Assembly (NCBI RefSeq): GCF_007993065.1
Contig: NZ_VOPL01000007.1
Location: 62,001-126,000 of the forward strand
From: Paracoccus aurantiacus
GTDB taxonomy: Bacteria; Pseudomonadota; Alphaproteobacteria; Rhodobacterales; Rhodobacteraceae
DNA length: 64,000 bases
Direction: 5' to 3'
Below the pieces are notes generated by a model, which had not been told where the DNA came from, did no database searches, and worked only from the letters and a program-made list of their open reading frames with translations. Position 1 is the stretch's first letter, and every line of letters begins with the position of its first letter. Positions 5,909 to 35,306 of this stretch are shown in pieces. Made by a program: the position numbers and the translations under genes.

Positions 5909-6859
5909 ATGGCGAATGTCCTGATCCTCGACGAACATGCCGACTGGTATGCAGAACAGCTGTCCGCCCGGCAGCCCGGTTTCAGCTACCATGCCGCCCG
6001 CAGCCCGGAAGAGGCGATGCCGATTGCAGCCGGGGCCGAGGTGCTGATCGCCCTTGCCCCCCGCATCCCCGCCGAACTGGTCGCCGCGATGGAGCGGCTG
6101 GCCTGGGTGCAGGCGCTGACCACCGGGGTCGACAATCTGCTGGCGATGAAGGAACTGCCCGATGATGTCGCGCTGACCAGTTGCGGCGGCTTTCATGGTC
6201 CGCAAATGTCGGAACTGGCGGTGATGCTGATGCTGGCCAGCGCGCGCCGCCTGCCGCAGATGATCGCCGACCAGCAGGCCGGCAACTGGACCCGATGGGA
6301 ACAGCCGCTGCTGCGAGACAAGACGGTCTGCATAATCGGCCTTGGCAGCATCGCCGAATACCTGGCCGGGCTGTGCGGTGCGTTCGGGATGCGGGTGACG
6401 GGTGTCTCGGACGGTCGTCGCGAAGCGCCCGGTATCGACCGCATCCATCCCCGCGCCGAGATCGAGACTGCGGTTGCCGAGGCCGACTTCCTCGTCGTTC
6501 TGGTGCCCTATTCGCCGCGCACCCATCATATCGTCGATGCGGCCGTGCTGGCGGCTATGAAGCCCTCGGCCATCCTTGTCAACATTGCCCGCGGCGGTTG
6601 CGTGGACGAGGATGCGCTGCTGGATAGCCTGCGCGCGGGCCGGATCGCTGGGGCCGGCCTCGATGTCTTCGCGACCGAACCGCTGCCCGCCGACTGTCCC
6701 TTCCGTAGCCTGCCCAATGTCATCGTGACCCCGCATATCGGCGGCTATGCCGATGTCTATCGCCAGCAGGCGCTGCCCATCGTCGCCGCCAATCTGGATG
6801 CCTACGCGAAGGGCGGGATCGACGCCCTTCCCCTGATTGACCGAGGAACGAAGCCATGA
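5909..6859 (+). CDS. D-2-hydroxyacid dehydrogenase
   Basis: The 316-residue NAD(P)-binding protein belongs to the D-isomer 2-hydroxyacid dehydrogenase family. The Rossmann glycine motif is GLGSIAEYLAG near residue 144. The catalytic arginine sits in NIARGGCVDEDAL, the glutamate in FATEPLPADCP and the histidine in VTPHIGGY. I chose the ATG at 5909 (MANVLILDEHAD) because it follows the dctM stop by eight bases and the family starts there; an upstream in-frame start lies inside dctM. Its substrate is presumably a 2-hydroxy acid brought in by the adjacent TRAP system (inference). Confidence 0.88.
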   Translation: MANVLILDEHADWYAEQLSARQPGFSYHAARSPEEAMPIAAGAEVLIALAPRIPAELVAAMERLAWVQALTTGVDNLLAMKELPDDVALTSCGGFHGPQMSELAVMLMLASARRLPQMIADQQAGNWTRWEQPLLRDKTVCIIGLGSIAEYLAGLCGAFGMRVTGVSDGRREAPGIDRIHPRAEIETAVAEADFLVVLVPYSPRTHHIVDAAVLAAMKPSAILVNIARGGCVDEDALLDSLRAGRIAGAGLDVFATEPLPADCPFRSLPNVIVTPHIGGYADVYRQQALPIVAANLDAYAKGGIDALPLIDRGTKP

Positions 6860-19652: not shown

Positions 19653-20119
19653 GCTCTTGCCTCCATCTTGGCCGTCCGGGTCGGGCGGCTGACGGGGAGA
19701 AGAACAATCACATCGAAAGCCCCGGCAGGGAGGCGGAAGGTGGCGTAATTGGCCCGGACTTATGCCGCCCCATGTTTTGCTGGGGTTTGCGCGATTCGCA
19801 TCCGTTCGACCGGCAGGTGCCCCGGCGAAGCGGCGGGCATGCCGGTGGGACATCATGCCGCATGTTCGGTAAACATCTGCGATTGCGGCGGCGCAGAATG
19901 AATCGCGGACGTTGTCGCCGCTGTCCGGGTCAAATGTCCTTGCCAAGTCGCGCTCCACCGTTAAAGAAACTCACCTATCACGCCCGAAGCGGAGGTCTGG
20001 CGCAGATCCGCCATGCGGTCCGCGACCGGCAATCGTGTTCTTCGGGAGATGATCGAACTGAAGCGCCGATGGTCGGGAGGATTGGCGGTCCGGCGCAGGA
20101 AGACGGGGAGAAGACACCA
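19653..20119. other. intergenic region of the element, divergent promoters likely
   Basis: These 467 bases separate a reverse run from a forward gene. I see no supported gene. It holds one copy of a 24-base direct repeat (19722-19745; other copy 22097-22120), a 13-base repeat GACGGGGAGAAGA at 19691-19703 and 20102-20114, and a small CCCCA/TGGGG hairpin near 19770. Divergent promoters are expected. Confidence 0.5.
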
Positions 20120-20758: not shown

Positions 20759-22021
20759 TCAGGCGCTCTTCCGCGCCTGCTCTCCGGCATCATGCACCAA
20801 CTGCGGCCGTGGCCGAAACGCGCTGGCCACCGCATCGACCCCGGCGCGGAGCGGCGAATCCATCAGATGGGCATAGCGCGCCGTCGTCTGGGTCTGGCTG
20901 TGACCCAGCAGCTTGCCGATCATTTCCAGCGAGGCGCCGCCGCTGACCAAGAGCGAAGCAAAGGTGTGGCGCAGATCGTGGATCCGGACATCCTCGATCC
21001 CGACCTGCTTCTGGATCTGCGCCCAGAAGCGGCGGATTTCCTTCACCGGCTGGCCGGGCACATCGCCCGGAAAAAGGAAGGCGCAACCGCGCGGCACCAG
21101 CAATTGCCGCTGGCGGACGATGGCAGCCGCTTCATCCGAGATCGGCAAGCGGTGAATCTTCCGCTGCTTGGTCATGCTGGCGGGCTTGGACCAGCTCAGA
21201 TGTTCGAGGTTGAAATGCTCGAACCGCGCCTGCCGGACTTCGCCGACCCGTGCTCCGGTCAGCATGCAGAGCCGGATGATATCGGCTGCCCGCCGATCCT
21301 CGGCCGCGTCCAGCGCGGCGGCGAGTTTGCGGATTTCCTCCTGCGACAGAAATCGCTCGCGCGGGTTCTCGATCCGGCGCCGAAAGCCAGATGCCGGATT
21401 ATCCTCCCGCCAACCCCAGCCCTGCGCATAGGTGAACATTTTTCGAAGCACTTCGCCGACGCGGTTGGCACGCACGGGGGTGGGCTTTGCACCTTGCAGC
21501 TTCCTTGCCCGGTTGTTGGGCTTTTCCTTGTGTGGTCGGGCACGACCCTTGGCGATCTGGTTCAGGAGCTTTTCCACGTCGTAAGGCGTGATCTCGGTCA
21601 CAAGACGGTTGTTCCAGTCCGGCCCGACCAGCTTGGTCAGCATGGAGCGCTGATCGGAGGCATTGGTCTTCGCCAGATTCGGCAGATGAACCTCGGCATG
21701 GCGCTCAACCAGATCGCTGAAGCGCGGTGCGTCCCGACCATCCTCCTTCGTGCCCAGCGGATCGCCCCCGGCATCGATATCCCGCCGCAATTCCTTCGCC
21801 CGTTCCCGCGCCGCCGCCGTCGACCATTCCGGCCAGCGCCCCAGCGTCATCCGCCGCTGCCGTCCGGCATGGCGGTAATCCAGCGTGAAGGCCCGATTGC
21901 CAGAGCGGTAGATGCAGATCGCAAATCCCCGCACCTCGCTGTCGAAAATCTGATAATCCCGGCCCGGCTCCGGCGCCGCCTCGCGCACCGATTTCTCGTT
22001 CAGCCTCAGTCTCTTGACCAT
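20759..22021 (-). CDS. site-specific tyrosine recombinase/integrase
   Basis: The 420-residue protein has the P4-type layout: an N-terminal DUF4102 arm-binding domain (RLNEKSVREAAPEPGRDYQIFDSEVRGFAICI), a SAM-like core-binding domain and a catalytic domain. The catalytic residues are visible: arginine in TGARVGEVRQAR, HxxR in IHDLRHTFAS, the second histidine in LLGHSQTQTTARYAHL and the tyrosine in the same segment. The ATG at 22021 (MVKRLRLNE) fits the family start. An IS1182 element now separates it from the tRNA-like attachment fragment at 23761-23791, its probable target. Confidence 0.93.
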   Translation of the reverse strand: MVKRLRLNEKSVREAAPEPGRDYQIFDSEVRGFAICIYRSGNRAFTLDYRHAGRQRRMTLGRWPEWSTAAARERAKELRRDIDAGGDPLGTKEDGRDAPRFSDLVERHAEVHLPNLAKTNASDQRSMLTKLVGPDWNNRLVTEITPYDVEKLLNQIAKGRARPHKEKPNNRARKLQGAKPTPVRANRVGEVLRKMFTYAQGWGWREDNPASGFRRRIENPRERFLSQEEIRKLAAALDAAEDRRAADIIRLCMLTGARVGEVRQARFEHFNLEHLSWSKPASMTKQRKIHRLPISDEAAAIVRQRQLLVPRGCAFLFPGDVPGQPVKEIRRFWAQIQKQVGIEDVRIHDLRHTFASLLVSGGASLEMIGKLLGHSQTQTTARYAHLMDSPLRAGVDAVASAFRPRPQLVHDAGEQARKSA

Positions 22022-22096
22022 GCCCAGCGCCTCCTTCTTGCATCCCACATGAGGCTCAGCCTCGCGCGCATGGCAAGTCATACATCGGCACCCACA

Positions 22097-22120
22097 CCGG
22101 CGGGGAGGCGGAAGGTGGCG
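22097..22120 (+). repeat. 24-base direct repeat, copy 2
   Basis: This matches 19722-19745 at 23 of 24 positions (core GGGAGGCGGAAGGTGGCG). It lies just upstream of the integrase start, and the other copy lies upstream of the excisionase-like gene. It could be a shared protein-binding site or trace of a duplication. Confidence 0.55.
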
Positions 22121-22174
22121 GAACTACGGTGGAGGCGTGCCGGTGGGGTGCTTATCCAAGGGGGAAACGGGCGT

Positions 22175-23706
22175 ATTTTGTTGAAAAACTCTTCTTGATT
22201 GGTGGGCTGGTCGCTGATTCAATTCCGTTGTCAGGCGGGAGGATCGGCGATGATGGGTCCACGGCAGGAAGCACAAGCAGCACTGTTCTACGCGTTTTCG
22301 CTTGAGGATCATGTCCCGCAGGACCATCTGCTGCGGTCGATTGATCGCTTTGTCGATCTGGACAGTATTCGGGCTCACTTGGCGGATTTCTACAGCCACA
22401 CGGGCCGCCCCTCGGTCGATCCCGAACTTCTGATCCGCATGCTTCTGGTCGGCTATTGCTTCGGTATCCGGTCCGAGCGGCGGCTATGCGAAGAGGTGCA
22501 TCTGAACCTCGCCTATCGCTGGTTCTGCCGTTTGGACCTGACCGACCGGGTGCCGGATCACTCGACGTTTTCCAAGAACCGGCATGGTCGGTTTCGCGAG
22601 AGCGAGTTGCTGCGTCGCCTGTTCGAGACCACGGTAGCGCGCTGCATTGCCGAAGGACTGGTCAGCGGACAGCGGCTGGCGGTGGATGCCAGCCTGATCG
22701 AGGCGGATGCCAATAAGCAGAACTCGACCCCGAAGGAAGATTGGGATGCAACGCAGATAGACCCGTCGGATGCGCCCCGCGCCGTGCGCGAATATCTCGA
22801 CACCTTGGACAAGGCCGCATTTGGCGCCGCCAGCGAGGTCCAGCCCAAATTCACCTCGCATTCCGATCCGGCCAGCCAGTGGACGGCGGCGCGTAAGGGA
22901 CCGGCATTCTTCAGCTGTTCCGACAATTACCTGATCGACACGGATCATGGTGTGATCGTCGATGTCGAGGCAACACGATCAATCCGGCAGGCCGAGCTCG
23001 GATCAACCAAAACCATGCTGAAGCGTGTGAGGGACAGGTTCGATCTCCATCCTGAACGCCTGATCGCCGACACCGCCTATGGCACCGGCCCGATGCTGGG
23101 CTGGCTGGTTGACCAGGGCATCGCACCGCACATCCCTGTCTTCGACAAATCCGGCCGCCCCGATGGAACATGGACCCGGGCCGACTTTGAATGGGATGCC
23201 GGGAACGACCAGTATATCTGCCCGGAAGGACATGCGCTGAAGCAGTTCCGCCGCAACTATTCGGACCCGAACCGCGGCCCGACCGGCAAGGGAACCGCCG
23301 AATACCGCGCGCTGAAACTGACCTGCCAGGCCTGCCCATCGAAACAGAAGTGCTGCCCGAACGCCGATGCCAGATCGATCACCCGTGAGGAACACGAAGA
23401 TGCGCGCCAGATCGCCCGGGACATCGCCCTGACCCGCCAATACGAGATCTCGATGAAGCTGCGAAAGAAGGTCGAGATGCTGTTTGCCCACCTCAAGCGC
23501 ATCCTCGGCCTCGGGCGGCTCCGACTACGAGGACCATACGGCGCAAGCGACGAATTCCTCCTCGCCGCCGCAGCCCAGAACCTCCGCAAACTCGCCAAGA
23601 TCTTTCCTGCACCGCAGCATCCACGAAAAGCCTGACACCAGAATGGCTTGAGGCCAAAATCACCGCCTAAACAAACCGCTCAAAACGCCGGGTTTTTCAA
23701 CAGAAT
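22175..23706 (+). mobile_element. IS1182-family insertion sequence
   Basis: The element is bounded by 17-base inverted repeats, ATTTTGTTGAAAAACTC at 22175-22191 and its near complement at 23690-23706 (15 of 17 matching). It contains one intact transposase gene. No direct target duplication is obvious. It sits between the integrase gene and the attachment-like tRNA fragment, so it entered after the element integrated. Confidence 0.85.
22250..23635 (+). CDS. IS1182-family DDE transposase
   Basis: The 461-residue transposase starts MMGPRQEAQAALFYAFSLEDHVP. It has the family N-terminal DUF772 region (GRPSVDPELLIRMLLVGYCFGIRSERRLCEEVHLNLAYRWFC). The DDE residues are D in LAVDASLIEADANK, D in LIADTAYGTGPML and E in LRKKVEMLFAHLKRILGL. 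A Cys-rich patch (CQACPSKQKCCPNA) near residue 380 is typical. GGGAGG lies 10 bases before the ATG. The gene looks complete and potentially active. Confidence 0.93.
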   Translation: MMGPRQEAQAALFYAFSLEDHVPQDHLLRSIDRFVDLDSIRAHLADFYSHTGRPSVDPELLIRMLLVGYCFGIRSERRLCEEVHLNLAYRWFCRLDLTDRVPDHSTFSKNRHGRFRESELLRRLFETTVARCIAEGLVSGQRLAVDASLIEADANKQNSTPKEDWDATQIDPSDAPRAVREYLDTLDKAAFGAASEVQPKFTSHSDPASQWTAARKGPAFFSCSDNYLIDTDHGVIVDVEATRSIRQAELGSTKTMLKRVRDRFDLHPERLIADTAYGTGPMLGWLVDQGIAPHIPVFDKSGRPDGTWTRADFEWDAGNDQYICPEGHALKQFRRNYSDPNRGPTGKGTAEYRALKLTCQACPSKQKCCPNADARSITREEHEDARQIARDIALTRQYEISMKLRKKVEMLFAHLKRILGLGRLRLRGPYGASDEFLLAAAAQNLRKLAKIFPAPQHPRKA

Positions 23707-23760
23707 CGGCGGGAAGCGAAAGTTCGCTGTGGGGGCAAACGCTTTATAGTCGTTCAACTA

Positions 23761-23791
23761 ACGGGAAGTTCGAATCCCGTCCGCTCCGCCA
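23761..23791 (+). other. tRNA 3'-end fragment, candidate attachment site
   Basis: The segment reads as the T-arm and 3' acceptor strand of a tRNA: GTTCGAATCCCGT followed by CCGCTCCG and a terminal CCA. CCGCTCCG would pair with a GGAGCGG 5' strand as in alphaproteobacterial tRNA-Ser. The 5' half is absent. The T-stem arms (ACGGG/CCCGT) pair perfectly but enclose 10 bases instead of 7, so it is not a functional tRNA. It lies next to the integrase/IS block and is most simply an att duplicate. A tmRNA piece is a less likely alternative. Confidence 0.65.
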
Positions 23792-23795
23792 AACA

Positions 23796-23840
23796 CCGCC
23801 GATTGCCGCCGAAAATAGCCCATGTGCCGCCGATTGCCGC
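23796..23840 (+). repeat. two direct copies of a 14-base repeat beside the attachment site
   Basis: CCGCCGATTGCCGC occurs at 23796-23809 and again at 23827-23840, 31 bases apart, just outside the tRNA-like fragment. Spacing of about three helical turns beside an att site suggests protein-binding arms (inference). Confidence 0.5.
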
Positions 23841-23878
23841 ACGCGGAAATGGCGGTTTCTGGCGGAAGTCGCTCCCCA

Positions 23879-24484
23879 TCACCTCGGGGCCGTCAGAAGA
23901 ACCTGAGTCATCCGCACGAGTTCATCCTCGAACTCCTTCGTTCCGAAGTAGGCTGACTCCTCCATGAGCGCTGCCCTTGCTGCGCCGATAATCGCGCGGG
24001 TCAGGACATAGGCGGTGATGGGTTTCAATTCCCCTGTTTTCGCCTGCGCGCTGAGAATATCCGGCATGACCCGGTCGACAGGTCTGGCCAGTTCGTCCGA
24101 CAACCCGTTGGCAATCAATGCCTCAATCAGGGCCTTCCGGCTTCTCGGTCTGCCATGAAAGCCCTGCAGCAAGGCCTGGATTCCACGACGAAGGGGATCA
24201 ACTGCTTCGTCGACCTGCTCCGCGCCGGAAACGCCCGCTGCCACCGCTTGACTGGTTTCAGCCAGTTCCTGACGTGCCAGAGCGATCAGGATGGCGTTCT
24301 TGTCCGGGAAGTATTGATAGAGCGTCCCGATGCTGACCCCGGCCTTTTCCGCGATGGCATTGGTAGTCAGGGCGCCCACGCCATCCTGCTGCAAAATCTG
24401 AGCCGTCGCCTCCAAGATCGCATCAACACTGGCCTTCGCCCGAGCCTGCGTTGGAATTTTCCTATATGAAACAATATCTTTCAT
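23879..24484 (-). CDS. TetR family transcriptional regulator
   Basis: The 201-residue protein has the TetR N-terminal HTH: RAKASVDAILEATAQILQQDGVGALTTNAIAEKAGVSIGTLYQYFPDKNAILIAL at about residues 15-70. The C-terminal half is the variable effector domain. It is divergent from an NAD-dependent dehydrogenase gene, with 103 bases between the starts. That gap contains an inverted repeat at 24530-24548. The usual arrangement is repression of both genes; the ligand is unknown. Confidence 0.92.
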   Translation of the reverse strand: MKDIVSYRKIPTQARAKASVDAILEATAQILQQDGVGALTTNAIAEKAGVSIGTLYQYFPDKNAILIALARQELAETSQAVAAGVSGAEQVDEAVDPLRRGIQALLQGFHGRPRSRKALIEALIANGLSDELARPVDRVMPDILSAQAKTGELKPITAYVLTRAIIGAARAALMEESAYFGTKEFEDELVRMTQVLLTAPR

Positions 24485-24529
24485 CTCTGGCCGCGCTCAT
24501 TCCCGGATTTTCGCAATGCGAGTTTATAA

Positions 24530-24548
24530 ATGTGAGCATTACTCATAT
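24530..24548. promoter_or_regulatory. inverted repeat, candidate TetR operator
   Basis: ATGTGAGCATTACTCATAT has arms ATRTGAG/CTCATAT around CATTA. It lies between divergent tetR and dehydrogenase genes, 46 bases from the tetR start, where such operators normally sit. Confidence 0.55.
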
Positions 24549-24587
24549 TTCTTTGCCACACAACAACCGAAGCAAGGAAATACGGAA

Positions 24588-25490
24588 ATGAAACCTGCAA
24601 TCACTGAAACCATCGCAGTCATCGGCCTTGGCAAGATGGGAGCCGGAATGGCGCAGAACATTCAGGCCGCTGGAGCTGAACTCGTCGTGTTCAACCGCAC
24701 CACGGCAAAAGCGCAGCCGTTTGTTCAGCATGGCGCACGGCTGGCCGAAACCCCGCGCGACGCGGCGGCGAGCGCGTCCATCGTGCTCACCAGCCTTATG
24801 GATGATGTCTCGGTGCGTGAGATCGTAACAGCATCCGACGGCATTCTGGCGAGCCTGAAGCGCGGTGGAATCCACCTTTGCGCGACGACGGTCTCACCCG
24901 AACTGGCGGCGGAACTGACAGAGCTGCATCGCCAGCATGGCAGCCACTTCGTATCGGGAACCGTGGTCGGACGGCCGGATGTGGCGGCTGCGGGCGAGTT
25001 GATCACGCTTTTGTCTGGTGACGATGCGGCCATGGCACGGTGCAAACCTGTCTGCGAAAGCTATTCCGCCAAGGTCGTCGCCCTCGGGAGTCGCCCCGGG
25101 CTGGCCAACTATGCCAAACTTTCCATCAACTATTTCGCGGTTTCCAGCATGGAATTGATGGGCCAGATTTACGCCTATGGTGATGCGGTTGGCATTGACC
25201 GTGCCTTCTACGGTCGGCTGTTCGACAGCAGCTTCTCCAATCCGATCCTGAAACTCTACGCCGTTAAGATTCGCGACCGCGCATTTGAGACCGGGGTCGG
25301 TTTTGAGTTGTCAGGTGGATTGAAAGACGTAAAGCTCATGGCCGCAGCCTCTGAGCGGACATCTAAATCCTTCGAATATGCACCCATCATCATCCGCAAG
25401 ATGGAGCAAGCCATTGAGCATGGCCGCGCCAATAACGACTGGAGCGTGTTTACAGCATTCCCGGGCAGCGAGGCTGACTCCACTGTCTAA
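24588..25490 (+). CDS. NAD(P)-dependent 3-hydroxyisobutyrate dehydrogenase-like oxidoreductase
   Basis: The 300-residue protein belongs to the beta-hydroxyacid dehydrogenase family. The dinucleotide motif is IAVIGLGKMGAGMAQNIQAAG at the N-terminus. The substrate-binding loop appears as VSGTVVGRPDVAAAG, and the catalytic-lysine region lies around YAKLSINYF. The cofactor pattern VFNRT suggests NADPH. I start at 24588 because AAGGAA precedes the ATG. Its divergent TetR partner and the operator between them suggest induction by a small molecule. The physiological substrate is not evident. Confidence 0.87.
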   Translation: MKPAITETIAVIGLGKMGAGMAQNIQAAGAELVVFNRTTAKAQPFVQHGARLAETPRDAAASASIVLTSLMDDVSVREIVTASDGILASLKRGGIHLCATTVSPELAAELTELHRQHGSHFVSGTVVGRPDVAAAGELITLLSGDDAAMARCKPVCESYSAKVVALGSRPGLANYAKLSINYFAVSSMELMGQIYAYGDAVGIDRAFYGRLFDSSFSNPILKLYAVKIRDRAFETGVGFELSGGLKDVKLMAAASERTSKSFEYAPIIIRKMEQAIEHGRANNDWSVFTAFPGSEADSTV

Positions 25491-25982
25491 CGGCGCGTTC
25501 CAAAATGGTCTTCGTGGCCTTCCTATGGTACGCTATTTTTGAACACTCCTCGCGTTGGTCGGCGACTAAATTAGGCTGCCGACCAATTTGAGTTAGTCAT
25601 TTCATAGGGCTATGGCGTCGGTGTAGTTCTCTTTTTCATCGGCTTCGGCCCAGCAACAGCTCCATCGCTCCCGAATTAGTTGAATGACGAGGGCAACAAG
25701 GTGACACGCTACGCAGGTGGTTGAGCGCCACCGCACAATTACTAGCTGATGCCGCCCGTTTAGTTTGGCATCAGCTGGGTGGTTGGCAGCTGTCTGAGTC
25801 ACTAATCTCATAAGGTAGGTAGAAAATTGCTTCCCAAATCATGCCAGCTTCGGCATAGTTGGCTTGGCTGAACTGCTTCTGCCTACCGCACTTCTATCTC
25901 GTTTGAGCAATACTGCAATCTTGTCTATCCTTGGGCGCTGCCAAAGCTGCAAGAATGCAAAAGTGCTGCAGAGACTAAATTT
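25491..25982. other. intergenic region with terminator-like hairpin
   Basis: No supported gene lies in these 492 bases. A 9-bp inverted repeat TTGGTCGGC/GCCGACCAA (25555-25586) probably ends the dehydrogenase transcript. Open frames here, such as 25602-25811 reverse, lack recognisable content. Base composition shifts toward A+T, which marks the left side of the secreted-protein cluster. Confidence 0.5.
25555..25586 (+). terminator. terminator-like hairpin after the dehydrogenase
   Basis: A perfect 9-bp stem TTGGTCGGC/GCCGACCAA with a 14-base loop is followed by TTTG. It lies 65 bases after the dehydrogenase stop. Confidence 0.5.
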
Positions 25983-26480
25983 ATGGGGTGTCTTACGTCG
26001 ATGTCCTTCATTCGCTCGCTGAAATCTTCTTGGTTGATCGCATTGCTTTTGTTCGTGAATGCGAACCCAAGCCTAGCTTGGGACGCTTTCCCTGTAGGGG
26101 AATCTGTTACGCTGATGCAATCAGGCACCGACTACAACGTAGAGATTAGCTGTGCCAAGACCAACGGCAGTAAGCTGCGCCTTGAAATCCGCCGAGTCTA
26201 TGCGCCGATTGACGAGATAGAGCGTATAAAGTCTGTCACGCTTCATATTTATACCGGAACGTCTTTGGAATTCGCGCAGGAAATTGCGGTGGCGCTTACA
26301 ACTGATCGGGACATAATGCTTACCGGCTTTGTGGATTTCGCAATGGCTGGCCTCAAAAGTCTGGCTTCTGGCAGCAAGCTTGATATTATCGATAACGCGA
26401 CCGGGCGGATAATTTTCTCCAGTCCCATGCATGGCACATCGCAGGGGCGAAAGCTGTTCAAAGAACGATGCGGGATATGA
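25983..26480 (+). CDS. small secreted protein, paralogue 1 of cluster
   Basis: The 165-residue protein has a Sec signal peptide, with hydrophobic SWLIALLLFVNANPSLA and then WDAF. It is not recognised. One cysteine falls in an early strand (NVEISCAKTNGSKLRLEIRR), and the protein ends in KERCGI. The gene at 26562 has the same plan (signal peptide, strand cysteine, SERCGI end), so these are paralogues, probably with a disulphide. The start could also be the ATG at 26001; neither has a strong SD. It opens a six-gene forward cluster of exported proteins. Confidence 0.7.
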   Translation: MGCLTSMSFIRSLKSSWLIALLLFVNANPSLAWDAFPVGESVTLMQSGTDYNVEISCAKTNGSKLRLEIRRVYAPIDEIERIKSVTLHIYTGTSLEFAQEIAVALTTDRDIMLTGFVDFAMAGLKSLASGSKLDIIDNATGRIIFSSPMHGTSQGRKLFKERCGI

Positions 26481-26561
26481 GGCTGACCAGGATGACGCTT
26501 CCACGGGTGGGGCCCAATTCTCTTTACGCTTCTTTGGCTAGGTTTTGCATGGGAGTTTCGG

Positions 26562-27053
26562 ATGAAAAAGCTCGGGCGGATTTCGATATGGGTGATGTGC
26601 ATCGCGCTTCCGGCATCGTCGCTCGTCACGCCGAAAGCCCACGCATGGGAACTTGGCAAAGCTGCAGATAGCGCTTGGACGGCAGAAAGCAGCGACGGCA
26701 TAAGACTTCGGTTCAGTTGCAGCCGCGGCACTGGTCGGCTGTCCATGATGCTTACGGATCTTTCCAAGGGTGCGGACCTGTCAGCTCCACTCGCCTCGAT
26801 CGAGGCGTCGGAATCTCTGATGCTGACTATCCAGCTGCCCGACGGCCGCACCAGCCGTAAGCCGATTGCCAGTTTCAATGAGCAAGGCTCTGTCGCGGCC
26901 GAGATTCCTGCGGGTTCGTTCGATCTTGAGGCCTTCGCGAATGGGCAGAGTCTGATTCTTGAGGATGTCGGCACGGCAAGAGCGCTGTTTCGGTCTGGGA
27001 TGAAGGGGACAGGCGCGGCACGCCTTGCCTTCAGCGAACGCTGCGGAATCTGA
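26562..27053 (+). CDS. small secreted protein, paralogue 2 of cluster
   Basis: The 163-residue protein starts MKKLGRISIWVMCIALPASSLVTPKAHA and is probably cleaved there, before WELG. The mature part looks like a small beta-rich domain. Cysteines occur in LRFSCSRGTG and at the terminal SERCGI, the same two places as in the 25983 gene. An SD-like GGGAG precedes the ATG. I find no known domain. An export role in the periplasm or outside follows from the signal peptide only. Confidence 0.75.
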   Translation: MKKLGRISIWVMCIALPASSLVTPKAHAWELGKAADSAWTAESSDGIRLRFSCSRGTGRLSMMLTDLSKGADLSAPLASIEASESLMLTIQLPDGRTSRKPIASFNEQGSVAAEIPAGSFDLEAFANGQSLILEDVGTARALFRSGMKGTGAARLAFSERCGI

Positions 27054-27107
27054 ACGATCATTCAAGAGCATATACTCAGTCCAACCGGGAAAGGGAGATA
27101 ATGCGTT

Positions 27108-28427
27108 ATGATCCAGATTAAACACGCGCTTTTCGGCCTCTGCGTCATGAGCGCTCTTCCCGTCCATGCGCAAAGCCAGGCCGAGCGGCTGGCGCAAATG
27201 ATGTCCAAGAACTACGCCATGCAGTCCCTTCAATCGATAATGCTGGGCGATCTTGAGAGCGCGCGGAACTTTGCGCTTCGCGCGTTCCCGCCCGACCCGA
27301 CCGAGCAAGAAGCAATGGCGCTTCCTGAGGCCATGTTCGCTCTGGAGTTGGCGATGGGCGCGCGTATCGCGCATATCGACGACGAAGGGACGGGGCTCTA
27401 CAGTGTTGACAGCACCGGTACGAGGGCGTTCGCAGGGTTCTACGATCCTCGTCCGGAAGTGAACACGCAATATGTCACCCCGGCAATCTACGATCCCCGT
27501 GACGGGGCCCTGATCGGCGCGCTGGATGAGGTCGCGGCGTCGTCTTCCCCCGAGTTTTCTCCCGAGTTCTCGCCTGACGGCAAGCTTCTTGCCTATCCGA
27601 CCTTTCCCAGAGCGAAGGTCCAGCTTTTCAGCTCTGAAGATGGAAGTCTGGTGCGTGAACTGACGACTGATGTGTCGGCGCCGTTCGATTGGCTGGTGCC
27701 AGTGCCCTTGGGCTTCTCGGCTGACGGAACGCAATACGCATATGGGTATCGTCACGACCGCGGAGGCATCCTGGTCTGGAACGTTGCCGACGGCAGCTTG
27801 GTGAGCCATCTGGCGGCGGAGGGTGAGGGCGCCGAAACATGGGTGCCACTCGGTTGGGATCATGAGGGCGGCTTCGCCGTTCAGAAGATCATCAATGATA
27901 CAGCGACCGGAATGGTAACGAATGCTAGTTTGGAGCGGTGGAGCCAGGACGGAGGAAAGGCCATGCTTTCCGATCTCGCAGGCGTGATAGACACCGTATC
28001 GCTGAAATCCATCACCTTTCCGGGCGTGCCTGTTGTCTTCATGTCGGACGAGATGCGCCTGGCGGCGATTGATCTTGAGACCGGCGCAGTCCGCTTCAAG
28101 ACCGAGGTTGAGTTTCCCGAAATCGCGCTTGTGCGTAACGGCACGGCATTTTCGATAAGGCCCTTCGACATCGAATCGCTTGACGATTTTCAGGTCTTCG
28201 ATCTGGCGGGAAATCGGCTGCAGATATTGGGACGCGATCTCATTCCGCTGGCGCAGGCGGCTGTATCACGGTCCGGCATGATTGCGGCGGTTCCGAAAAA
28301 CGCCACGCGGCATACATATCTTGGGCAGGATCTGCCGAAAGGTGCAGCACTCTATAACGCTGTCTGGGACGGACTCGACGCGGCGACCCAACAGGCCATC
28401 AACCAGGATCGGGTCGTCCGGCCATGA
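27108..28427 (+). CDS. exported propeller-like protein, paralogue A
   Basis: The 439-residue protein has the signal peptide ALFGLCVMSALPVHA, cleaved before QSQAERLAQMM. A helical N-terminal section resembling a repeat (SARNFALRAFPPDPTEQEAMALPEAMFALELAMGARI) is followed by WD40/beta-propeller-like blades: FSPDGKLLAYPTF, GFSADGTQYAYGY, GILVWNVADGSLVSHL. The C-terminus is DRVVRP. The next gene encodes a clear paralogue and overlaps by ATGA, so the pair arose by tandem duplication. The propeller suggests a binding or scaffold role; no enzyme motif is seen. Confidence 0.78.
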   Translation: MIQIKHALFGLCVMSALPVHAQSQAERLAQMMSKNYAMQSLQSIMLGDLESARNFALRAFPPDPTEQEAMALPEAMFALELAMGARIAHIDDEGTGLYSVDSTGTRAFAGFYDPRPEVNTQYVTPAIYDPRDGALIGALDEVAASSSPEFSPEFSPDGKLLAYPTFPRAKVQLFSSEDGSLVRELTTDVSAPFDWLVPVPLGFSADGTQYAYGYRHDRGGILVWNVADGSLVSHLAAEGEGAETWVPLGWDHEGGFAVQKIINDTATGMVTNASLERWSQDGGKAMLSDLAGVIDTVSLKSITFPGVPVVFMSDEMRLAAIDLETGAVRFKTEVEFPEIALVRNGTAFSIRPFDIESLDDFQVFDLAGNRLQILGRDLIPLAQAAVSRSGMIAAVPKNATRHTYLGQDLPKGAALYNAVWDGLDAATQQAINQDRVVRP

Positions 28428-29749
28428 TGATCAAGCAGGCTGCATTTGCCGGGCTGATACTGGCCCAATCCGCCCTCGCTCAGACGGATACCGAACGTCT
28501 CGCGGATCTGATGTCACGGGACTTTGCCAATCAGGCGATCACGGCGCTTCGAAAGGGGGACAGGCCGGCAGCGCTGAGCCTTGCCCTGAGAGGTCTGCCG
28601 GATCAGCCCACTGAAGACGATCTGGTGCGCTATCCCGAAGCGGTCTTTGCGCTGGAACTGGCCTATGGCGCGCGCGTCCCGCGCATCGATCAGGACAGGG
28701 ACGCACGTTACAGTGTCAACAGCGACGGAACGCGGGCGTTCGTCAGCCGGTGGGAGGATCCGACACATCCTGATCAGGACAGTTTTCCCCAAGCCATCAT
28801 CGACCCGCGCGACGGTCGCCTGATCGCAGAGCTGGATCCACAGATAAGGGTTCACGGGGTCACAACGCCGGGCATATCGGCCTCGTTTTCGCCTGATGGC
28901 AGCATTCTGGCCTTGCCGTCGAACGAGACATCGATCGTTCATCTCTACGCCGCCGAGGATGGCGCATATATTGGTGAAATGAAACCCAGTCCCGAGGCGA
29001 GTGGAGGAAAATCCATCGGCTACGAGGCCGGCTTCAATCAGGACGGGCGCCTTTATGCGCGCGCCTATAGCGTTCTCCGAACGACGGGTATCGACATATG
29101 GGATGTGCGATCACGCGATCTAATTCATAACTTTCAGACCGTCTCGGATAAGACCACGCGGCAGGTGCCTTTGGGATGGGACCATGAAGACGGATTGATC
29201 GTTCAGACGACGCGAAGCGATCCGGACAGGAAAATTCCTGATAAAATCATCATCGAGAGATGGAAAACGGATGGGACGAAATCGGCGCTCGTCTCGCGGG
29301 AAGGTCGAAAATACGACATGGATGTCACCGCCTTTGCCTATCCAGAAACCGGCCTTCTATTCCTTGCAGGTGAACAGGGGCTGGAGGCCGTAGACATGTC
29401 GACCGGCCAGCTACGCTTCAGTCATCCGATGATCGGGCCGTTCGCGGCCCTTGCGCGCGACGCTCATGCGGTCGTGCTTCGGCCCCGTTCGCTGGTCCAG
29501 CCGGACGCCTTCACCGTCCTTGATCTGGATGGTAACGAACTTGCTATCAGAGGGAATGACGCAATCCCTTTCATGCATGACGTTTTCTCGCCTGGCGGCA
29601 ATCGTATAACCATGTCGACCGGTCTGCTGCAGACGACCTACGCGGGGGCTGGCGCGCCTCAGGGTTTGACGCTGTACGAGCGGGTGTGGAGCGAAATGAG
29701 CGAGGCCGAGCGACGGAATATCAGTGTCGAGCGCGTGCCTCGCCCGTAG
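28424..29749 (+). CDS. exported propeller-like protein, paralogue B
   Basis: The 441-residue protein parallels the upstream gene from end to end. It has a short signal peptide (AAFAGLILAQSALA), ERLADLMSRDFANQAITALRKGDRPAALSLALRGLP, PEAVFALELAYGARVPRID, YSVNSDGTRAFVS, blade-like FSPDGSILALPS and GIDIWDVRSRDLIHNF, and the end ERVPRP. The ATG overlaps the previous stop. The alternation of a helical start with a propeller is shared only within this pair, so the two probably form a complex or bind related partners (inference). Confidence 0.78.
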   Translation: MMIKQAAFAGLILAQSALAQTDTERLADLMSRDFANQAITALRKGDRPAALSLALRGLPDQPTEDDLVRYPEAVFALELAYGARVPRIDQDRDARYSVNSDGTRAFVSRWEDPTHPDQDSFPQAIIDPRDGRLIAELDPQIRVHGVTTPGISASFSPDGSILALPSNETSIVHLYAAEDGAYIGEMKPSPEASGGKSIGYEAGFNQDGRLYARAYSVLRTTGIDIWDVRSRDLIHNFQTVSDKTTRQVPLGWDHEDGLIVQTTRSDPDRKIPDKIIIERWKTDGTKSALVSREGRKYDMDVTAFAYPETGLLFLAGEQGLEAVDMSTGQLRFSHPMIGPFAALARDAHAVVLRPRSLVQPDAFTVLDLDGNELAIRGNDAIPFMHDVFSPGGNRITMSTGLLQTTYAGAGAPQGLTLYERVWSEMSEAERRNISVERVPRP

Positions 29750-29822
29750 CCGTAACGTCAACGGTGCCGCCACAAAGGAGGCATCATCTGTCCGTCCTTG
29801 GCCGTTATATCGAGGTCACCCG

Positions 29823-30296
29823 ATGCGTAAAACTAAATCTGCGTTCCTGATTGCCTTTTCTTACCTTCTTGCGAACCCGGTCCACGCTTGGGACAGAGTT
29901 AACAGCACCATGAACAGTGCCTTCTATGAGGCCGGTTCCGGCGATGTGACGATCTTGATCGGGTGTTATCCGGGTAGCGCAGAAATCCAGTTCACAATCA
30001 AAAGTGGAAGGCCGTTCCTGACCGGAAAAGAGCAACCGCGGACTATCGCTTTCGTAATTGACGGGGTGCGCTTCGCATCGGGTCTGTCGGACTACCTGAC
30101 CGGTCAAGAAGAAAGCTGGATCTCCGGAACATTTCCGTTCGGTCGGCATGCGGCCGTATTTGCAGGAGGTAACTCCATGACGGTTATTGATGCGACCGGC
30201 CGAAACGATGAGACTTTCCTGACCGTGGATCTTAAGGGATCCTCGTCTGCCATAAAAAAGCTATTGCAGACCTGCCCGGCGGCGGCAGGGCGATAG
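29823..30296 (+). CDS. small secreted protein, paralogue 3 of cluster (divergent)
   Basis: The 157-residue protein has the signal peptide MRKTKSAFLIAFSYLLANPVHA, then WDRV. As in the two small proteins upstream, a tryptophan follows the cleavage site. A cysteine sits in the early strand (VTILIGCYPGSAEIQF) and another near the C-terminus (KKLLQTCPAAAG). Sequence identity to them is low, so relatedness rests on layout. GAGG lies eight bases before the ATG. Function is unknown. Confidence 0.72.
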   Translation: MRKTKSAFLIAFSYLLANPVHAWDRVNSTMNSAFYEAGSGDVTILIGCYPGSAEIQFTIKSGRPFLTGKEQPRTIAFVIDGVRFASGLSDYLTGQEESWISGTFPFGRHAAVFAGGNSMTVIDATGRNDETFLTVDLKGSSSAIKKLLQTCPAAAGR

Positions 30297-30383
30297 GTTG
30301 AGGGAAGCGTCTGAACTGTTCGAAACCTCTTCCTGCCGCCATTTATACGACGTGCTTCGGCATTCATGCCTTACGGAGGACAA

Positions 30384-32141
30384 ATGAACCGCAAGATGCT
30401 GAGGGCGCTGATGCTGATGCTGTTCGTCGCCCCGAACTCTCTTCACGCCAGAGGCGAAGTGATCGAAATCGACCGGACGGAGATCGACGATCTGCTGCGA
30501 GGGTCCGGTTGCCCACGCGATTCTGCCAAGCAATATACAAGCATAACGGCTGGAATGATCTATATCGAGTGCCTGACTCGCGTGCTTGAGCGGCTGGGAT
30601 GTATGGAACCGCCCGAAGGTGGCTCGCCGTCTTTTGACCGTGGGCTGCAGTGTCTGAGGGAAGCGAACGGGCGCCCAAAAGGAACCGGAGGCGGGCAGCG
30701 GATAGATGACGTGCGCCTGATGCTGGGCGCTTACGCGTCGGATGGCGATGGCTCGGTCCCGCTGATGGGGATTTCGCTGGAAGGCCGGGATGTCAGGACC
30801 CTTGCCGCCGATGCGATCCTTGACCCGTTCGTGACGAGCGAGGCGCCACTGGCGGGTGCGGAAGCAGTTCGTGATCGGTATGGCATTGAGCTTATGGCGC
30901 GGGACGGGGGCGGGTTCACAATCGGCAGGGTGTCCGTCGGCGGGCCTGCATTTTTGCAGGGCAAGGGCTTCGGGACCGGCGATGCCCTTGAGCAGGTGAT
31001 CTTCGATACGCCCGGACAAGATGCAGAAGCATGCGGGGATATGCACTGTATTCATGAGGTCGCTTCCCGAAATGAATTCGGAGAGGCAATTCGAATAGGG
31101 GCAGATCTGATATTGCAGGCCGAGGCGCCAGACAGTCCACCCTGGATCGAGGTTCGCACCGATAAGCGCCAGGATTTGCTGCGTAAATACATGAACCAAA
31201 TACTCTGGGCAAAGCTGGGATTAGTCATAGTTGATGGTGACGGCGGAGGATATGCAAAGGTCCACAAGGTGAGGGGGCAAGGTCCGGCCGATCAGGTCGG
31301 GCTGACAGAGGGTCAGAAAATTCTGTCTCAACATGAGCCAAAGAACTGGGAAAGGCGAAACGACCAGCGCCGGCTTCAGGGGGCTGATTATATCATTGAC
31401 GGAGTTTATGATGCTCTGAATGAGTCTTATTTTATTGGAATCATCGGATTTTACTCTGGCGCCATTGGCGAAAAGCCACAACATCGAAAGATTACGGTGA
31501 ATCCTGGCGCAATTGTTTTCGATGGTGGCGTCGTGGCCTTAGATGCCGATAGAGAGTTTTCCGCGGTGAACCCTGGGCGAGATCGTCGTGAGGCGGAGCG
31601 CAACTGGAAGCTGGCGTCAGAGAGAAAGGCCCAGGAAATCGAAGCGGCACGGCCCCGGGAATTTGTCATGTTCGAGGAAGCCGAGCGAAGCATTTTGGAG
31701 CTTGTCTATAGGGGTGAGTATGCGGCCGCTGCCAATTATGTGCCTCAGCGGGCCGAGTACACGCCATCGGTTGACAGTATATTCATGGATCCAGTTCGAA
31801 GGATGATCCATTCAGGATATTCTGCGATGCGGTGGAAGCCCCTGGTAAAGGACTACGCGATTTGGCGTGCATCTGTGTTGGGTGCTTGTCCCGGGGATGG
31901 CAGAGCCCTGACTGTCGTGACGACAACGACAGAAGACGGGCGGATAGTTGGTGAAGAGAGCCGTCAGTATTTTTTCAATCCAGATTTTTATCGAATAACA
32001 GTTGAACTAGATAATTTTGACACTGGAACGGGCATGAACGCATTTCGTCTTCCATGGGCTGAGTTCTTTGGTCAGCTAAGCTGCAATAGCGAATTTTTGT
32101 CTACTATGGACAGGAATATGGTAGAATTTTATGATTACTGA
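30384..32141 (+). CDS. exported protein with two PDZ-like segments
   Basis: The 585-residue protein has the signal peptide MNRKMLRALMLMLFVAPNSLHA and an SD GGAGG before the ATG. A Cys-containing N-terminal domain (GSGCPRDS, YIECLTRVLERLGCMEP, GLQCLREA) is followed by two segments of PDZ type: YGIELMARDGGGFTIGRVSVGGPAFLQG near residues 165-195 and LGLVIVDGDGGGYAKVHKVRGQGPADQVGLTEGQKIL near 280-315. A charged helical stretch and an unassigned C-terminal domain follow. No protease triad is seen. Codon use becomes A/T-rich toward the end (31380-32140), unlike the flanking genes, which points to transfer. Last gene of the cluster. Confidence 0.75.
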   Translation: MNRKMLRALMLMLFVAPNSLHARGEVIEIDRTEIDDLLRGSGCPRDSAKQYTSITAGMIYIECLTRVLERLGCMEPPEGGSPSFDRGLQCLREANGRPKGTGGGQRIDDVRLMLGAYASDGDGSVPLMGISLEGRDVRTLAADAILDPFVTSEAPLAGAEAVRDRYGIELMARDGGGFTIGRVSVGGPAFLQGKGFGTGDALEQVIFDTPGQDAEACGDMHCIHEVASRNEFGEAIRIGADLILQAEAPDSPPWIEVRTDKRQDLLRKYMNQILWAKLGLVIVDGDGGGYAKVHKVRGQGPADQVGLTEGQKILSQHEPKNWERRNDQRRLQGADYIIDGVYDALNESYFIGIIGFYSGAIGEKPQHRKITVNPGAIVFDGGVVALDADREFSAVNPGRDRREAERNWKLASERKAQEIEAARPREFVMFEEAERSILELVYRGEYAAAANYVPQRAEYTPSVDSIFMDPVRRMIHSGYSAMRWKPLVKDYAIWRASVLGACPGDGRALTVVTTTTEDGRIVGEESRQYFFNPDFYRITVELDNFDTGTGMNAFRLPWAEFFGQLSCNSEFLSTMDRNMVEFYDY

Positions 32142-32611
32142 TAATGGTGCGGCTCTGTCGTACAAATCAGCTGCTGGTCGGGGTTTCTTTTTCCCGGAAC
32201 GGGTCTGTCGGACGGCTTCAGTAACAGGGATGCCGAGCGCGGTGTAGCCATTGGGGACGGTGACACGGACTTGGAGTTCGGTGATTTGCCGGATCCAGAT
32301 GTCCCGGACCTGTCCAATTCGGACGGTTACGAAGTGATGTTCCACGACCTGCGCTTTCCCTGCGCCACCAGCGTAACGCAGAAGCGAGTCGCTACGAAGT
32401 TGGAAAGGGTACTTAACCTGCCACGATGCTGCGATGGTGTCGAATAAGGTTCACCTCAACGCCACCTCAACCCTTGGCTGCAGTTTTCGCGTGGGTTGGG
32501 CCGTCCAAAGCCGGGTGATGCGGTCGAATGTCGGCATGGAAGTCGCAAGAAAACAAACAGTTATCTCATAAGTCGCTGATAATACTAGATTTTGCAATTT
32601 CCGCTTTGATC
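32142..32611. other. intergenic region before the tRNA-fMet fragment
   Basis: No supported gene lies in these 470 bases. A reverse open frame around 32130-32345 reads VRVTVPNGYTALGIPVTEAV, which has the look of a degraded coding end, but I cannot assign it. The phrase TCAACGCCACCTCAAC near 32454 recurs in similar form near 32728 on the other side of the tRNA fragment. Confidence 0.4.
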
Positions 32612-32658
32612 GGCTCATAACCTGAAGGTCGTAGGTTCAAATCCTACCCCCGCAACCA
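32612..32658 (+). other. initiator tRNA-Met 3' fragment (attachment scar)
   Basis: Forty-seven bases match the 3' half of alphaproteobacterial tRNA-fMet: the CAT anticodon loop (CTCATAA), CCTGAAGG, the T-arm GTAGGTTCAAATCCTAC and the acceptor CCCCGCA with ACCA. The 5' anticodon stem strand no longer pairs and the D-arm is absent. A tRNA 3' half cut within the anticodon region is the usual remnant of tyrosine-recombinase integration. No integrase lies between here and 23.8 kb, so the element that used this site has lost its integrase or lies elsewhere. Confidence 0.8.
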
Positions 32659-32815
32659 AAAAAATTTAAATAAATCAAGTAGATATGTGGGAGGTATTAT
32701 TATACTCACGCCCAATCGCCCACTTACATCAACGCCACATCAACACCAGACACCAAAAACTGCGTAAGCGTCCGGGCTGACTGATCAGCCCCACCTAGGT
32801 GGTCCAACTTGATTG

Positions 32816-32912: not shown

Positions 32913-33019
32913 GCTGGTGATCAGCTAAATCGACATGCATGATCATGACATTTCATCATGGGCGGGCAATCAGAACCGACAGTCTTGAGCACCCGCCTCG
33001 ACATTGATGTGCAGCGACG

Positions 33020-33750
33020 TCAGATCGTTTTTCGTCGCAAGGACGGTCCAGAAAGCTCGATGCGATGCGCAGCACTGGTGAGGCGATCGAGTATTGCATC
33101 TGCGATCGTCGGATTATCGATGAAGGCATGCCAGTTCTCGACCGGCAACTGACCACAAACGATGGTCGCGCGTTCGCCAATTCGGTCATCCAGAAGCTCC
33201 AGAAGATCATGTTTGCCTGTCGCCTTGAGCTTGCTGACGCCGAAGTCGTCAAGGATGAGCAAGTCTGCCCGCTTATAATACGCACGCAACCGCGGGGTGG
33301 TGCCTTCCAGATGCGCAAGCTCAAATTCCTCCAGGAGGCGGGAAACCATCCTATAGGAGACGCTGATGCCGTTGCGGATGGCCTGCATCCCCAGGCAGCA
33401 GCCGAGCCAAGTTTTTTTTCTGTACCGCTCTTGCCGGTGATCAGCACATTCTGGTTACGATTAATCCAGTCGCAACTTAACAAGCGTGTCGTTAGCGATT
33501 TGTCCAGATTTCGCTGACTGCCATAAGTCAGTTCTTCGGGCTGGGCGTGAACACGCAATTTTGCGGCGCGTAGAAGGCGTTCTTTTCGAGCGTTCAGGCG
33601 GTACAGTTCTTCGGCATCGACCAGCATGGCCAGCCGGTCTTCGAACCCCAAGTCCGCTTGCTGAGGAGTTTCGACCTGTTGGCGCAATGCCTTCTGCATC
33701 CCTTTCAGTTTAAGATCGTCGAGTTTTCGTAGTGTCGCTTCAACGCTCAT
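33020..33750 (-). pseudogene. istB: IS21 helper ATPase IstB, frameshifted
   Basis: The N-terminal part is normal (MSVEATLRKLDDLKLKGMQKALRQQVETPQQADLGFEDRLAMLVDAE), as is the start of the P-loop (NVLITGKSGT). The sequence then has a run of eight A near 33412, and the frame is lost. The rest of IstB (WLGCCLGMQAIRNGISVSYRMVSRLLEEFELAHLEG, Walker B DLLILDDFGVSKLK) continues in another frame to 33020. The expected GTGKT of the P-loop is damaged even if a ribosome slipped, so the protein is probably inactive. It overlaps istA by ATGA. Confidence 0.85.
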
Positions 33751-35306
33751 GTATCGGTCCTCCCGTAATAGCTGGCTCCGCGGATGTTCTTGTGATTGGC
33801 GCTCGGATCCTCGGTTCCGTCTGCCTTAACCGGGGTCTCTATCCGAGCCGGCTGCGCAATCAATCGTTCAATCCGCCTGATATGCGGTGCGTCGGGGCAA
33901 TGCGTCAGAACCCAATCCGCAGCCTGAACGACGATCTCCTCGCCGTGATGGTCGACAAGTTCGGCAAGTTTGCGCGCGCATTTATCCGTCGCATTCGGGT
34001 TCTTCCAAACCGCCAGATGAAGTCTGAGATAGCGGTCGATTGGCTTCGCCTGATACCTGCCCCAGGTATTGAAATATCGATGTCGGTGATCACCATGGAA
34101 ACGATGGTTGTCCGGCTGATGGTGTCTGAGCGTCGAAACTTTACCTACGCCCTGCAACTGCGGATGAATGGCCACGCGTCGACGAACATGAAAGAGGCTG
34201 ACGACCTCCTGATCCTCGAAGAGGTCGACGGTCTTGCCAATCAACTCATGTGGTACGGAATAGAAATTGCCGCGATATTCGACGTGATAGTCTTCGGGAA
34301 CGCGAACCGACCTGATGTGCTGAAGGTTCCGAAACGGTCGATGCGGCAGCGCTCTCAAACGGCTTCTTTCTTCTTCTTCGAATATCTGTCTTCGAGACCG
34401 TCCGCCAAGGCGACGCATAGGCTTATCGTTGATCCGGTCCAGTTCGATCCCAATGGCGCGGTTGATTTCGGGGATGGAATGAAATGTCTGGCGAGATAAT
34501 GGTAGCGTGATCCAGCGTTTGACATGCAGCACGGACTGCTCGACGAGGCCTTTGTCCTGTGGGTTACCAACGCGAGCTGGAAGTGGCGTTACGCCATAAT
34601 GCTGCATCGCCCGATCAAAGGCAGCATTGAGCACTTGGCCACGTGCATGGGATCTCGGGTGGATCACAGCCGCCTTCAGATTGTCCGGGACAATATACTT
34701 CGGCGTCCCTCCAAAGTAGTCGAACATGGCGACATGGGCCTTTATCCAACTTTGTGCGCTCTGGTCAGGCACTGCGGTCGCGAAGATAAGGCGGCTATGC
34801 CCCAAAGCGCCAATGAAGAGCTCGACATGGCGCTTTTTGCCAGTTTCCGGGTCCGTGAGTTCCGGGCGCTTGCCTGAAAAATCGACGAAGGCTTCCTCTC
34901 CGGCAATTCGCACCTGCCGCATGATCGGACCGCGCTTTTTGAGATGCGCCTTGAGTTTGCGGCAAAATCGCGTGTAACTCATGGGAACTTCGGACTGCCG
35001 CGCGTATTCATTATGCAGTACGGTCATGACCATACCCTTCTCTGACGACATGCGCCGCGCCATCAGGTCCCAATCAGGTTCGGTCCAGGTCGTGGGCAAT
35101 AACTCACGCTTGAGGTCGAGAAGATCGCGCAACGCGTCCACGGTCAGCTCGTCGATTTCGGCCAAACTTAAAGGGCGATTACGAAGCTTACTCCGATATT
35201 TGCCAACTGTCGTGCGGTGTATGTCACACACCCGACCGATGGCGACATTGCTCAGATCTTCCATGACGATCAGACGCAGTGCTTTCTTGAAATCCATGTC
35301 TGGCAT
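33747..35306 (-). CDS. istA: IS21-family transposase IstA
   Basis: The 519-residue transposase has an N-terminal HTH (DFKKALRLIVMEDLSNVAIGRVCDIHRTTVGKYRSKL) and an rve-type catalytic core. The aspartates are in EEAFVDFSGKRP and YIVPDNLKAAV, and the glutamate is in QDKGLVEQSVLHVKRW. The Mu-type beta-barrel region (YHVEYRGNFYSVPHELIG) follows. Length and order are those of a complete IstA. The helper gene downstream is broken, so autonomous transposition is doubtful. Confidence 0.93.
   Translation of the reverse strand: MPDMDFKKALRLIVMEDLSNVAIGRVCDIHRTTVGKYRSKLRNRPLSLAEIDELTVDALRDLLDLKRELLPTTWTEPDWDLMARRMSSEKGMVMTVLHNEYARQSEVPMSYTRFCRKLKAHLKKRGPIMRQVRIAGEEAFVDFSGKRPELTDPETGKKRHVELFIGALGHSRLIFATAVPDQSAQSWIKAHVAMFDYFGGTPKYIVPDNLKAAVIHPRSHARGQVLNAAFDRAMQHYGVTPLPARVGNPQDKGLVEQSVLHVKRWITLPLSRQTFHSIPEINRAIGIELDRINDKPMRRLGGRSRRQIFEEEERSRLRALPHRPFRNLQHIRSVRVPEDYHVEYRGNFYSVPHELIGKTVDLFEDQEVVSLFHVRRRVAIHPQLQGVGKVSTLRHHQPDNHRFHGDHRHRYFNTWGRYQAKPIDRYLRLHLAVWKNPNATDKCARKLAELVDHHGEEIVVQAADWVLTHCPDAPHIRRIERLIAQPARIETPVKADGTEDPSANHKNIRGASYYGRTDT

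Follow-up and report, generated by a model that had tools for sequence, protein, structure and literature searches.

Putatively exported WD40-like propellers and small two-cysteine proteins in an island-borne gene cluster of Paracoccus aurantiacus

The window analyzed here was a whole stretch of 64,000 nucleotides from the genome of Paracoccus aurantiacus (contig NZ_VOPL01000007.1, positions 62,001 to 126,000; C40:62001-126000 of genome G000). It carried, at 25983-32141, a block of six open reading frames (ORFs), all on the plus strand, which formed the last cargo of an island at a tRNA-Met gene. Four of the six genes, encoding two small proteins and two propeller proteins, were inherited together within the genus. 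We propose, with a probability of about 0.36, that the block is accessory island cargo in which the propellers serve as scaffolds and make up a cell-envelope module with the small proteins. The block comprised the following genes.

25983..26480, plus strand: small1, ORF for a predicted exported, probably IalB-like protein; start at 25983 or 26001
26562..27053, plus strand: small2, ORF for a predicted exported, probably IalB-like protein; the member with a structure model
27108..28427, plus strand: prop1, ORF with a putative signal, a helical head and a WD40-like propeller; end DRVVRP
28424..29749, plus strand: prop2, ORF of the prop1 family; 4-bp overlap with the prop1 stop
29823..30296, plus strand: small3, putatively exported small Cys protein; ATG at 29823, the listed GTG at 29724 being unlikely
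30384..32141, plus strand: sixth gene, predicted exported protein of 585 amino acids (aa); an orphan except for a C-terminal domain of ~100 aa

An earlier sequence-only reading had described six plus-strand genes with short gaps or overlaps. This was correct: with small3 started near 29823 instead of at the listed GTG, and the sixth gene started at 30384, the intergenic gaps from small1 to the sixth gene were 81, 54, -4, 73, and 87 bp. The three small proteins were ~155-165 aa long, and the propellers were 439 and 441 aa. All six products had a signal-peptide-like N-terminus when the translations were judged by eye, in agreement with the signal peptides read before, and all are probably exported. 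The GC contents of the genes were, in order, 0.50, 0.59, 0.59, 0.59, 0.54, and 0.55, and that of the window was 0.61. The A/T content had been said to rise toward the end of the block, which was only partly true.

The four-gene core small1-small2-prop1-prop2 was firmly co-inherited. A scan of genome contigs with both propellers found one locus, scaffold28 of Paracoccus sp. M683, where the genes lay in the same order with identities of 77% (small1), 85% (small2), 93% (prop1), 83% (prop2), and 79% (small3, shared part). The ratios of nonsynonymous to synonymous substitution rates (dN/dS) against M683 were 0.15-0.23 for four genes, a set that excludes small3 (small1 0.22, prop1 0.15), which indicated purifying selection. 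The normal 5′ end of small3 in M683 was replaced by foreign DNA. By eye, the replacement (L051 8720-8990) resembled an insertion-sequence (IS) remnant, and this copy probably lacks a signal peptide.

The search within the genus gave matches in 4 of 125 genomes, namely the genome itself, G807, G756, and a fragment in G799 (a 116-aa frame); prop1 of G807 was the same as that of M683 in coordinates and identity. G756 held small1-small2-prop1-prop2 in the same order, with identities of 45, 69, 68, and 61%, respectively, followed by a resolvase (by eye), and the stretch examined gave no match to small3 or to the sixth gene. In G799, a propeller remnant came first, followed by an exported protein of 1436 aa, for which we selected the start, and then by a small2-like gene (51%). 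Order and strand of the four genes were kept in three Paracoccus genomes, and those of five genes in two. The co-occurrence of all six genes in relatives, which had been proposed as a check, was only partly found: the core recurred in M683 and G756, but a different gene occupied the sixth place in M683, and six genes as one fixed unit were not borne out. The duplications that gave small1/small2 and prop1/prop2 are old, because every copy is matched by a separate orthologue in the other strains.

The two tandem propeller proteins were 36% identical and were firm paralogues. A helical start, propeller-like blades and an R-V-x-R-P end had been read from their translations, and all three held: the two shared a head, matched WD40 structures by profile and ended alike. 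Against the PDB, a profile of the window and M683 propellers (A11) matched Tup1 at E 2.8e-8 and TolB at about 3e-4, and a broader propeller profile (A3) matched WD40 structures at up to 2.4e-64, with its best stretches within profile positions 119-261, both among the best 60 of 426 matches. The curated WD40 profiles of Pfam scored P0003 and P0004 far below their cut-offs at best, and P0003 reached 16.8 bits with the TolB model TIGR02800, the cut-off of which is 343. A helical head of 70 residues was present in all family propellers tested, including both from G756, and in no other ORF of at least 150 aa of the loci compared. An origin of this head from STAND-WD40 proteins was considered and dropped, because no further ORF in those loci had the head. 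These profiles mark the propellers as WD40-like, and their helical head is diagnostic. They resemble WD40 propellers and TolB in their blade repeats and profile matches, but they carry an exported head of their own and fall far below the TolB model.

The small proteins had been described by the pattern signal-Trp, strand Cys and C-terminal Cys, which proved real. The two Cys were found in all 15 rows of the small-protein alignment and also in both G193 proteins, which were left out of it; the Trp lay at or adjoining the expected mature start in all 14 rows with an intact N-terminus, row M683_3 being without one. The C-terminal ERCGI was that of small1 and small2. Relationships were judged by profile comparison (hhalign), the E-values of which are uncalibrated against a database and were read beside reversed sequences as a control. 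Small1 and small2 were firm paralogues (E 1.2e-11, reversed 0.38). Compared as single profiles, small3 gave E 0.13 with small1 (reversed 0.051) and E 0.18 with small2 (reversed 0.12), so that its paralogy to them appears weak; among outside groups, it came nearest to the small proteins of the Sulfitobacter type (E 7.9e-4, reversed 0.33; 89 columns). Small2 also had firm kin in the single genes of G159 and G078 (E 9.3e-22, reversed 0.068). Those of G193 were kin of the Paracoccus small set (E 3.6e-6, reversed 0.15). Six paralogues made by repeated internal duplication had been claimed; two firm old pairs stood, small3 was weakly tied, and the sixth gene was unrelated to the five other genes. 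A comparison of the small family with PDB sequences gave nothing better than E 0.27 (IL-1, topoisomerase), and these weak matches were taken as chance. In the wider taxonomic family, a profile of the small proteins had matches at E<=0.01 in 10 of 295 genomes, five of them over most of the profile (G000, G255, G159, G078, and G193) and five at the C-terminus only (G125, G240, G012, G272, and G138). Of the latter five, G125 and G240 were taken up as fused domains, and the other three were left aside.

The pairing of propeller and small protein was also found in other genera. Of 394 family genomes scanned with an eight-propeller profile, six had full-length members: our own (G000), G159, G255, G320, G345, and G366. 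Another 21 of the 27 genomes matched at E<=1e-5 had partial WD40-type matches only and were kept outside the family count; weak matches in G118, G188, and G222 were not among the 27. A tblastn search of plasmids with prop2 yielded five records. Among nine non-Paracoccus propeller loci (L009-L014 and L048-L050), a small exported Cys protein adjoined the propeller in four: the plasmids of Sulfitobacter W074 and S. indolifex, G255, which has a double propeller, and G345. A second W074 plasmid record also matched both the propeller and the small protein. The small proteins are likely propeller ligands, because they stay beside the same propeller family. The propellers of G366 (L050 10365-10748) and G159 (L014 within 4418-6406) each had, on the opposite strand, an unrelated small exported neighbor with the C-terminus FLPPGNG.

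The small two-cysteine proteins probably have the IalB fold, as suggested by one structure model and by profile comparison. Small2, the only small protein modelled, was predicted from six sequences with a mean predicted local distance difference test score (pLDDT) of 71.8, residues 1-34 being below 50. In the VIA structure comparison, Bartonella henselae IalB (3dtd) came first, with Z 8.2, a root-mean-square deviation of 3.6 and 11% identity over 124 of 143 residues, although by VIA's own note a best Z of 7 to 8 is common, so that 8.2 is just above a typical best. The next unrelated chain had Z 6.1, and Z>=8 was reached by 2 of 999 chains; we regard the agreement with the IalB fold as borderline. 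When 19 IalB rows (PF06776 matches in relatives) were compared with the 15 small rows, E was 1.3e-5 (reversed 0.42), with a C-terminal strand-helix region alike. This combined score leans on the Sulfitobacter-type rows, as scoring of the groups one by one showed: these rows gave E 2.8e-4 (reversed 0.073), and the G193 rows gave 0.072 (reversed 0.14). PF06776 itself had no match at E<=1 in the three small proteins and none at E<=10 in seven family members. True PF06776 proteins occurred in the same genome and in all 12 same-genus relatives searched (18 of 21 genomes overall, including our own). The block proteins are like IalB in being exported, in their similar size and in the similar predicted fold of small2, but they differ in the lack of a PF06776 match, in the low identity and in being set with propellers on an island. 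A second comparison is offered by RgsG of Sinorhizobium meliloti, a periplasmic IalB-domain protein that is required for growth and located at sites of zonal cell-wall synthesis, whose protein set also contacts Tol-Pal and whose molecular function is still unknown (PMC7327166). RgsG likewise has an IalB-type domain and a periplasmic place, but it is part of a growth-pole protein set, and the accessible part of that article mentions no propeller operon.

The sixth position was variable between strains but shared a C-terminal domain. For the sixth protein of the window, the 295 family genomes and 337 class genomes searched gave no match besides the protein itself, and plasmids, viral contigs and genome contigs gave none at all. 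In M683, another exported protein of 662 aa (P0007) stood after small3 in this position. Marinobacter nauticus VT8 encodes a relative of P0007 on its conjugative plasmid pMAQU02 (34.8% over 95% of the length), and G002 a partial one. The last ~100 residues of the sixth protein matched the C-terminal domain of P0007, pMAQU02, and G002 (E 3e-5, reversed 0.29), and BLAST of the sixth protein against P0007 gave E 0.012. The sixth gene and the P0007 family share this domain and a mobile or plasmid setting, but the rest of the proteins is unrelated. The pMAQU02 relative (L065 11899-13869) links a gammaproteobacterium with Paracoccus cargo. A suspected kinship, by eye, of the N-terminal region of P0007 with the small-protein domain was dropped (E 0.054, controls 0.076 to 0.3). 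Two PDZ-like segments had been seen in the sixth protein, and this was not supported: Pfam PDZ gave no match at E<=10, the match of one segment to Phage_G (E 0.3) was irrelevant, and the likeness between the segments was weak, its score being reached in 12 of 1000 shuffles. The C-terminal part matched Imm75 below the cut-off (E 0.17). The structure model had a mean pLDDT of 30.6 and was unusable.

The integration scar reported beside the block was real. A gap of 464 bp separated the end of the block from the distal repeat, which closes a segment of ~47.5 kb; the features of the island around the block were as follows.

20759..22081, minus strand: tyrosine integrase (Pfam Arm-DNA-bind_3 and Phage_integrase), between the island repeats
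22162..25652, strand unassigned: IS1182-type element together with tetR and an NAD-binding dehydrogenase; in M683, none of these separates the integrase from the block
32606..32663, plus strand: direct repeat of the tRNA-Met 3′ end (distal attachment-site scar), an exact 58-bp copy

A 35-mer of the tRNA 3′ end was found exactly at 32624-32658 and at C40:47101-47135, and the exact repeat extended to 58 bp. An intact tRNA-Met (CAT), which differed from the 35-mer at two positions, lay at C40:91-167. One intact gene and two 3′-end copies ~47 kb apart suggest that two islands accreted in tandem. Rfam gave nothing in 15000-50000 at E<=0.1, ARAGORN found no tRNA in the window, and the stretches examined in G756 and G799 held none. 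The tRNA-Met site was seen in the genome of the window only, and the M683 contig ends too early for the repeat. The integrase of M683 was 94% identical in amino acids, and ~620 bp lay between its start and the block. In three of four Paracoccus plasmid records, nucleotide homology around the integrase stopped at 22144-22147, and in the fourth at 22124, with different genes beyond that point in the three annotated records; homology to M683 also stopped at 22144, and there the block followed. An 18-bp direct repeat (19728-19745 and 22103-22120) flanked the integrase gene region and is possibly part of a recombination site. Just past the island repeat was an IS21-type element (32956-35306, minus strand) with an IstA-like frame at 33747-35306 (Mu-transpos_C_2 and rve). 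Further beyond it, 36732-39482 (minus strand) encoded a 916-aa SMC/AAA-type ATPase with a PADLOC likeness to LmuB (E 5.2e-17), a possible defence gene.

An action at the envelope or cell wall was inferred because of fusion architectures and neighbor domains. At E 1.6e-5 (reversed 0.29), the first domain of a 1550-aa G125 protein resembled the small proteins, and a match to LprI at 21.3 bits (cut-off 22) followed it. The body of this protein matched the 1436-aa protein of G799 (E 9e-23), which has PG_binding_1 at its start (E 2.9e-8) and directly precedes the small2-like gene. In S. indolifex, an annotated LprI-family gene lay ~2.4 kb downstream of the propeller-small pair, and an LprI-domain periplasmic protein of Salmonella affects cell-wall homeostasis (PMC7933661). 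PF07007 (LprI) had no match at E<=1 in the block proteins. A small-protein-like start was also found in G240, in an exported protein of 1370 aa (L071 2109-6221, minus strand) that also has a PAN domain and, at its C-terminus, a caspase domain; a propeller suspected by eye in this protein was not borne out on testing.

Propellers often act as scaffolds. We propose that the block is accessory cargo of an integrative island in Paracoccus and encodes an extracytoplasmic set of two old protein types: small proteins with two cysteines, which probably have the IalB fold, and WD40-like propellers that are predicted to be exported. As scaffolds in the periplasm, the propellers would bind the small proteins, and the assembly may sit on the cell wall or envelope and protect or adjust peptidoglycan-linked processes, with the sixth position as a slot for an exchangeable partner. 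The envelope location is drawn from signal peptides judged by eye and from the partner domains.

Besides the modest height of the VIA score, several results weigh against this proposal. Foldseek with the small2 model gave no match below E 0.001, and no block protein had a curated family match above cut-off. The absence of a recognized function claimed earlier holds at those cut-offs, while the structure and profile searches that had been recommended did yield distant WD40 and probable IalB relationships through the PDB profiles and VIA. IalB scored E 0.0054 against the Paracoccus rows alone (reversed 0.17), 0.043, 0.054, and 0.036 against small1, small2, and small3 (reversed 0.23-0.37), no better than the control against the G159/G078 rows (0.53, reversed 0.55), and 0.026 against the G125 start (reversed 0.44). 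The Paracoccus and Sulfitobacter-type rows matched each other at E 0.042 (reversed 0.21), mainly via small3. No small neighbor was seen in the stretch examined at five of the nine non-Paracoccus loci (Roseivivax, Salipiger, G159 on a 6.4-kb contig, G320, and G366), and small2 relatives also stood alone in G078 and G159, with more distant ones in G193. The block is rare and therefore does not serve a housekeeping wall function.

Four other explanations were considered to account for the block. One is that it is cargo for contact-dependent competition or immunity, which would neutralize the periplasmic toxins or peptidoglycan hydrolases of rivals and fit its variable sixth gene to the local threat. 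The variability of that gene, the carriage on an island and plasmids, the retention of the small paralogues as a set and the partner domains LprI and PG_binding_1 all agree with this. However, no toxin or secretion gene was recognized beside the block in the stretches examined, by eye and with no dedicated search, and no immunity family passed its cut-off, the Imm75 likeness being the only one; we consider this explanation rather unlikely. An island-encoded barrier at the cell surface to phage or conjugation (superinfection exclusion) would likewise suit exported products carried as island cargo with so patchy a distribution, 4 of 125 genus genomes including our own and one of these a fragment. 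Here, PADLOC returned no match at E<=0.1 for P0001-P0007, scans of viral contigs with P0006, A5, A7, and A8 found no relative, and for P0007 the phage records gave none either; we consider this explanation improbable.

Chance accumulation of unrelated exported genes at an integration site is equally improbable for the block as a whole. The sixth gene and the flanks vary between strains, mobile DNA lies all around, and small3 is not tied to small1 and small2 by profiles; but the order and strand kept across the three genomes, the low dN/dS of the four genes and the propeller-small pairs in other genera disfavor chance for the core and leave it for the sixth gene. A role of the small proteins in host interaction, as IalB-like proteins that are secreted or lie on the surface and aid contact with eukaryotic cells, is very unlikely. 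IalB does affect erythrocyte invasion in Bartonella (PMC6299047), but the fold relation is only distant and probable, the presence of PF06776 in our genome and all 12 relatives shows that the superfamily is no host-specific marker, and RgsG has a role in cell growth (PMC7327166).

We return to the envelope module as the proposed reading. In its fullest form, it would be an undescribed island-carried extracytoplasmic system in which WD40 scaffolds hold specialized IalB-fold proteins, a swappable sixth subunit sets the target, and the whole gives envelope-level protection against hydrolases, toxins or phages; this version is speculative and rather unlikely in all its parts. In a partial literature search (IalB with propellers, periplasm and peptidoglycan; LprI; Paracoccus islands), no description of such a cluster was found, and the folds appear to be known or probably known ones in a combination for which no description was found. 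The exported multi-protein set is carried on an island and lies outside the PADLOC library. IalB-domain proteins are mechanistically unexplained and PF06776 is widespread, and the propeller that shares a conserved operon with these probable IalB-fold proteins would be a candidate binding partner for them.

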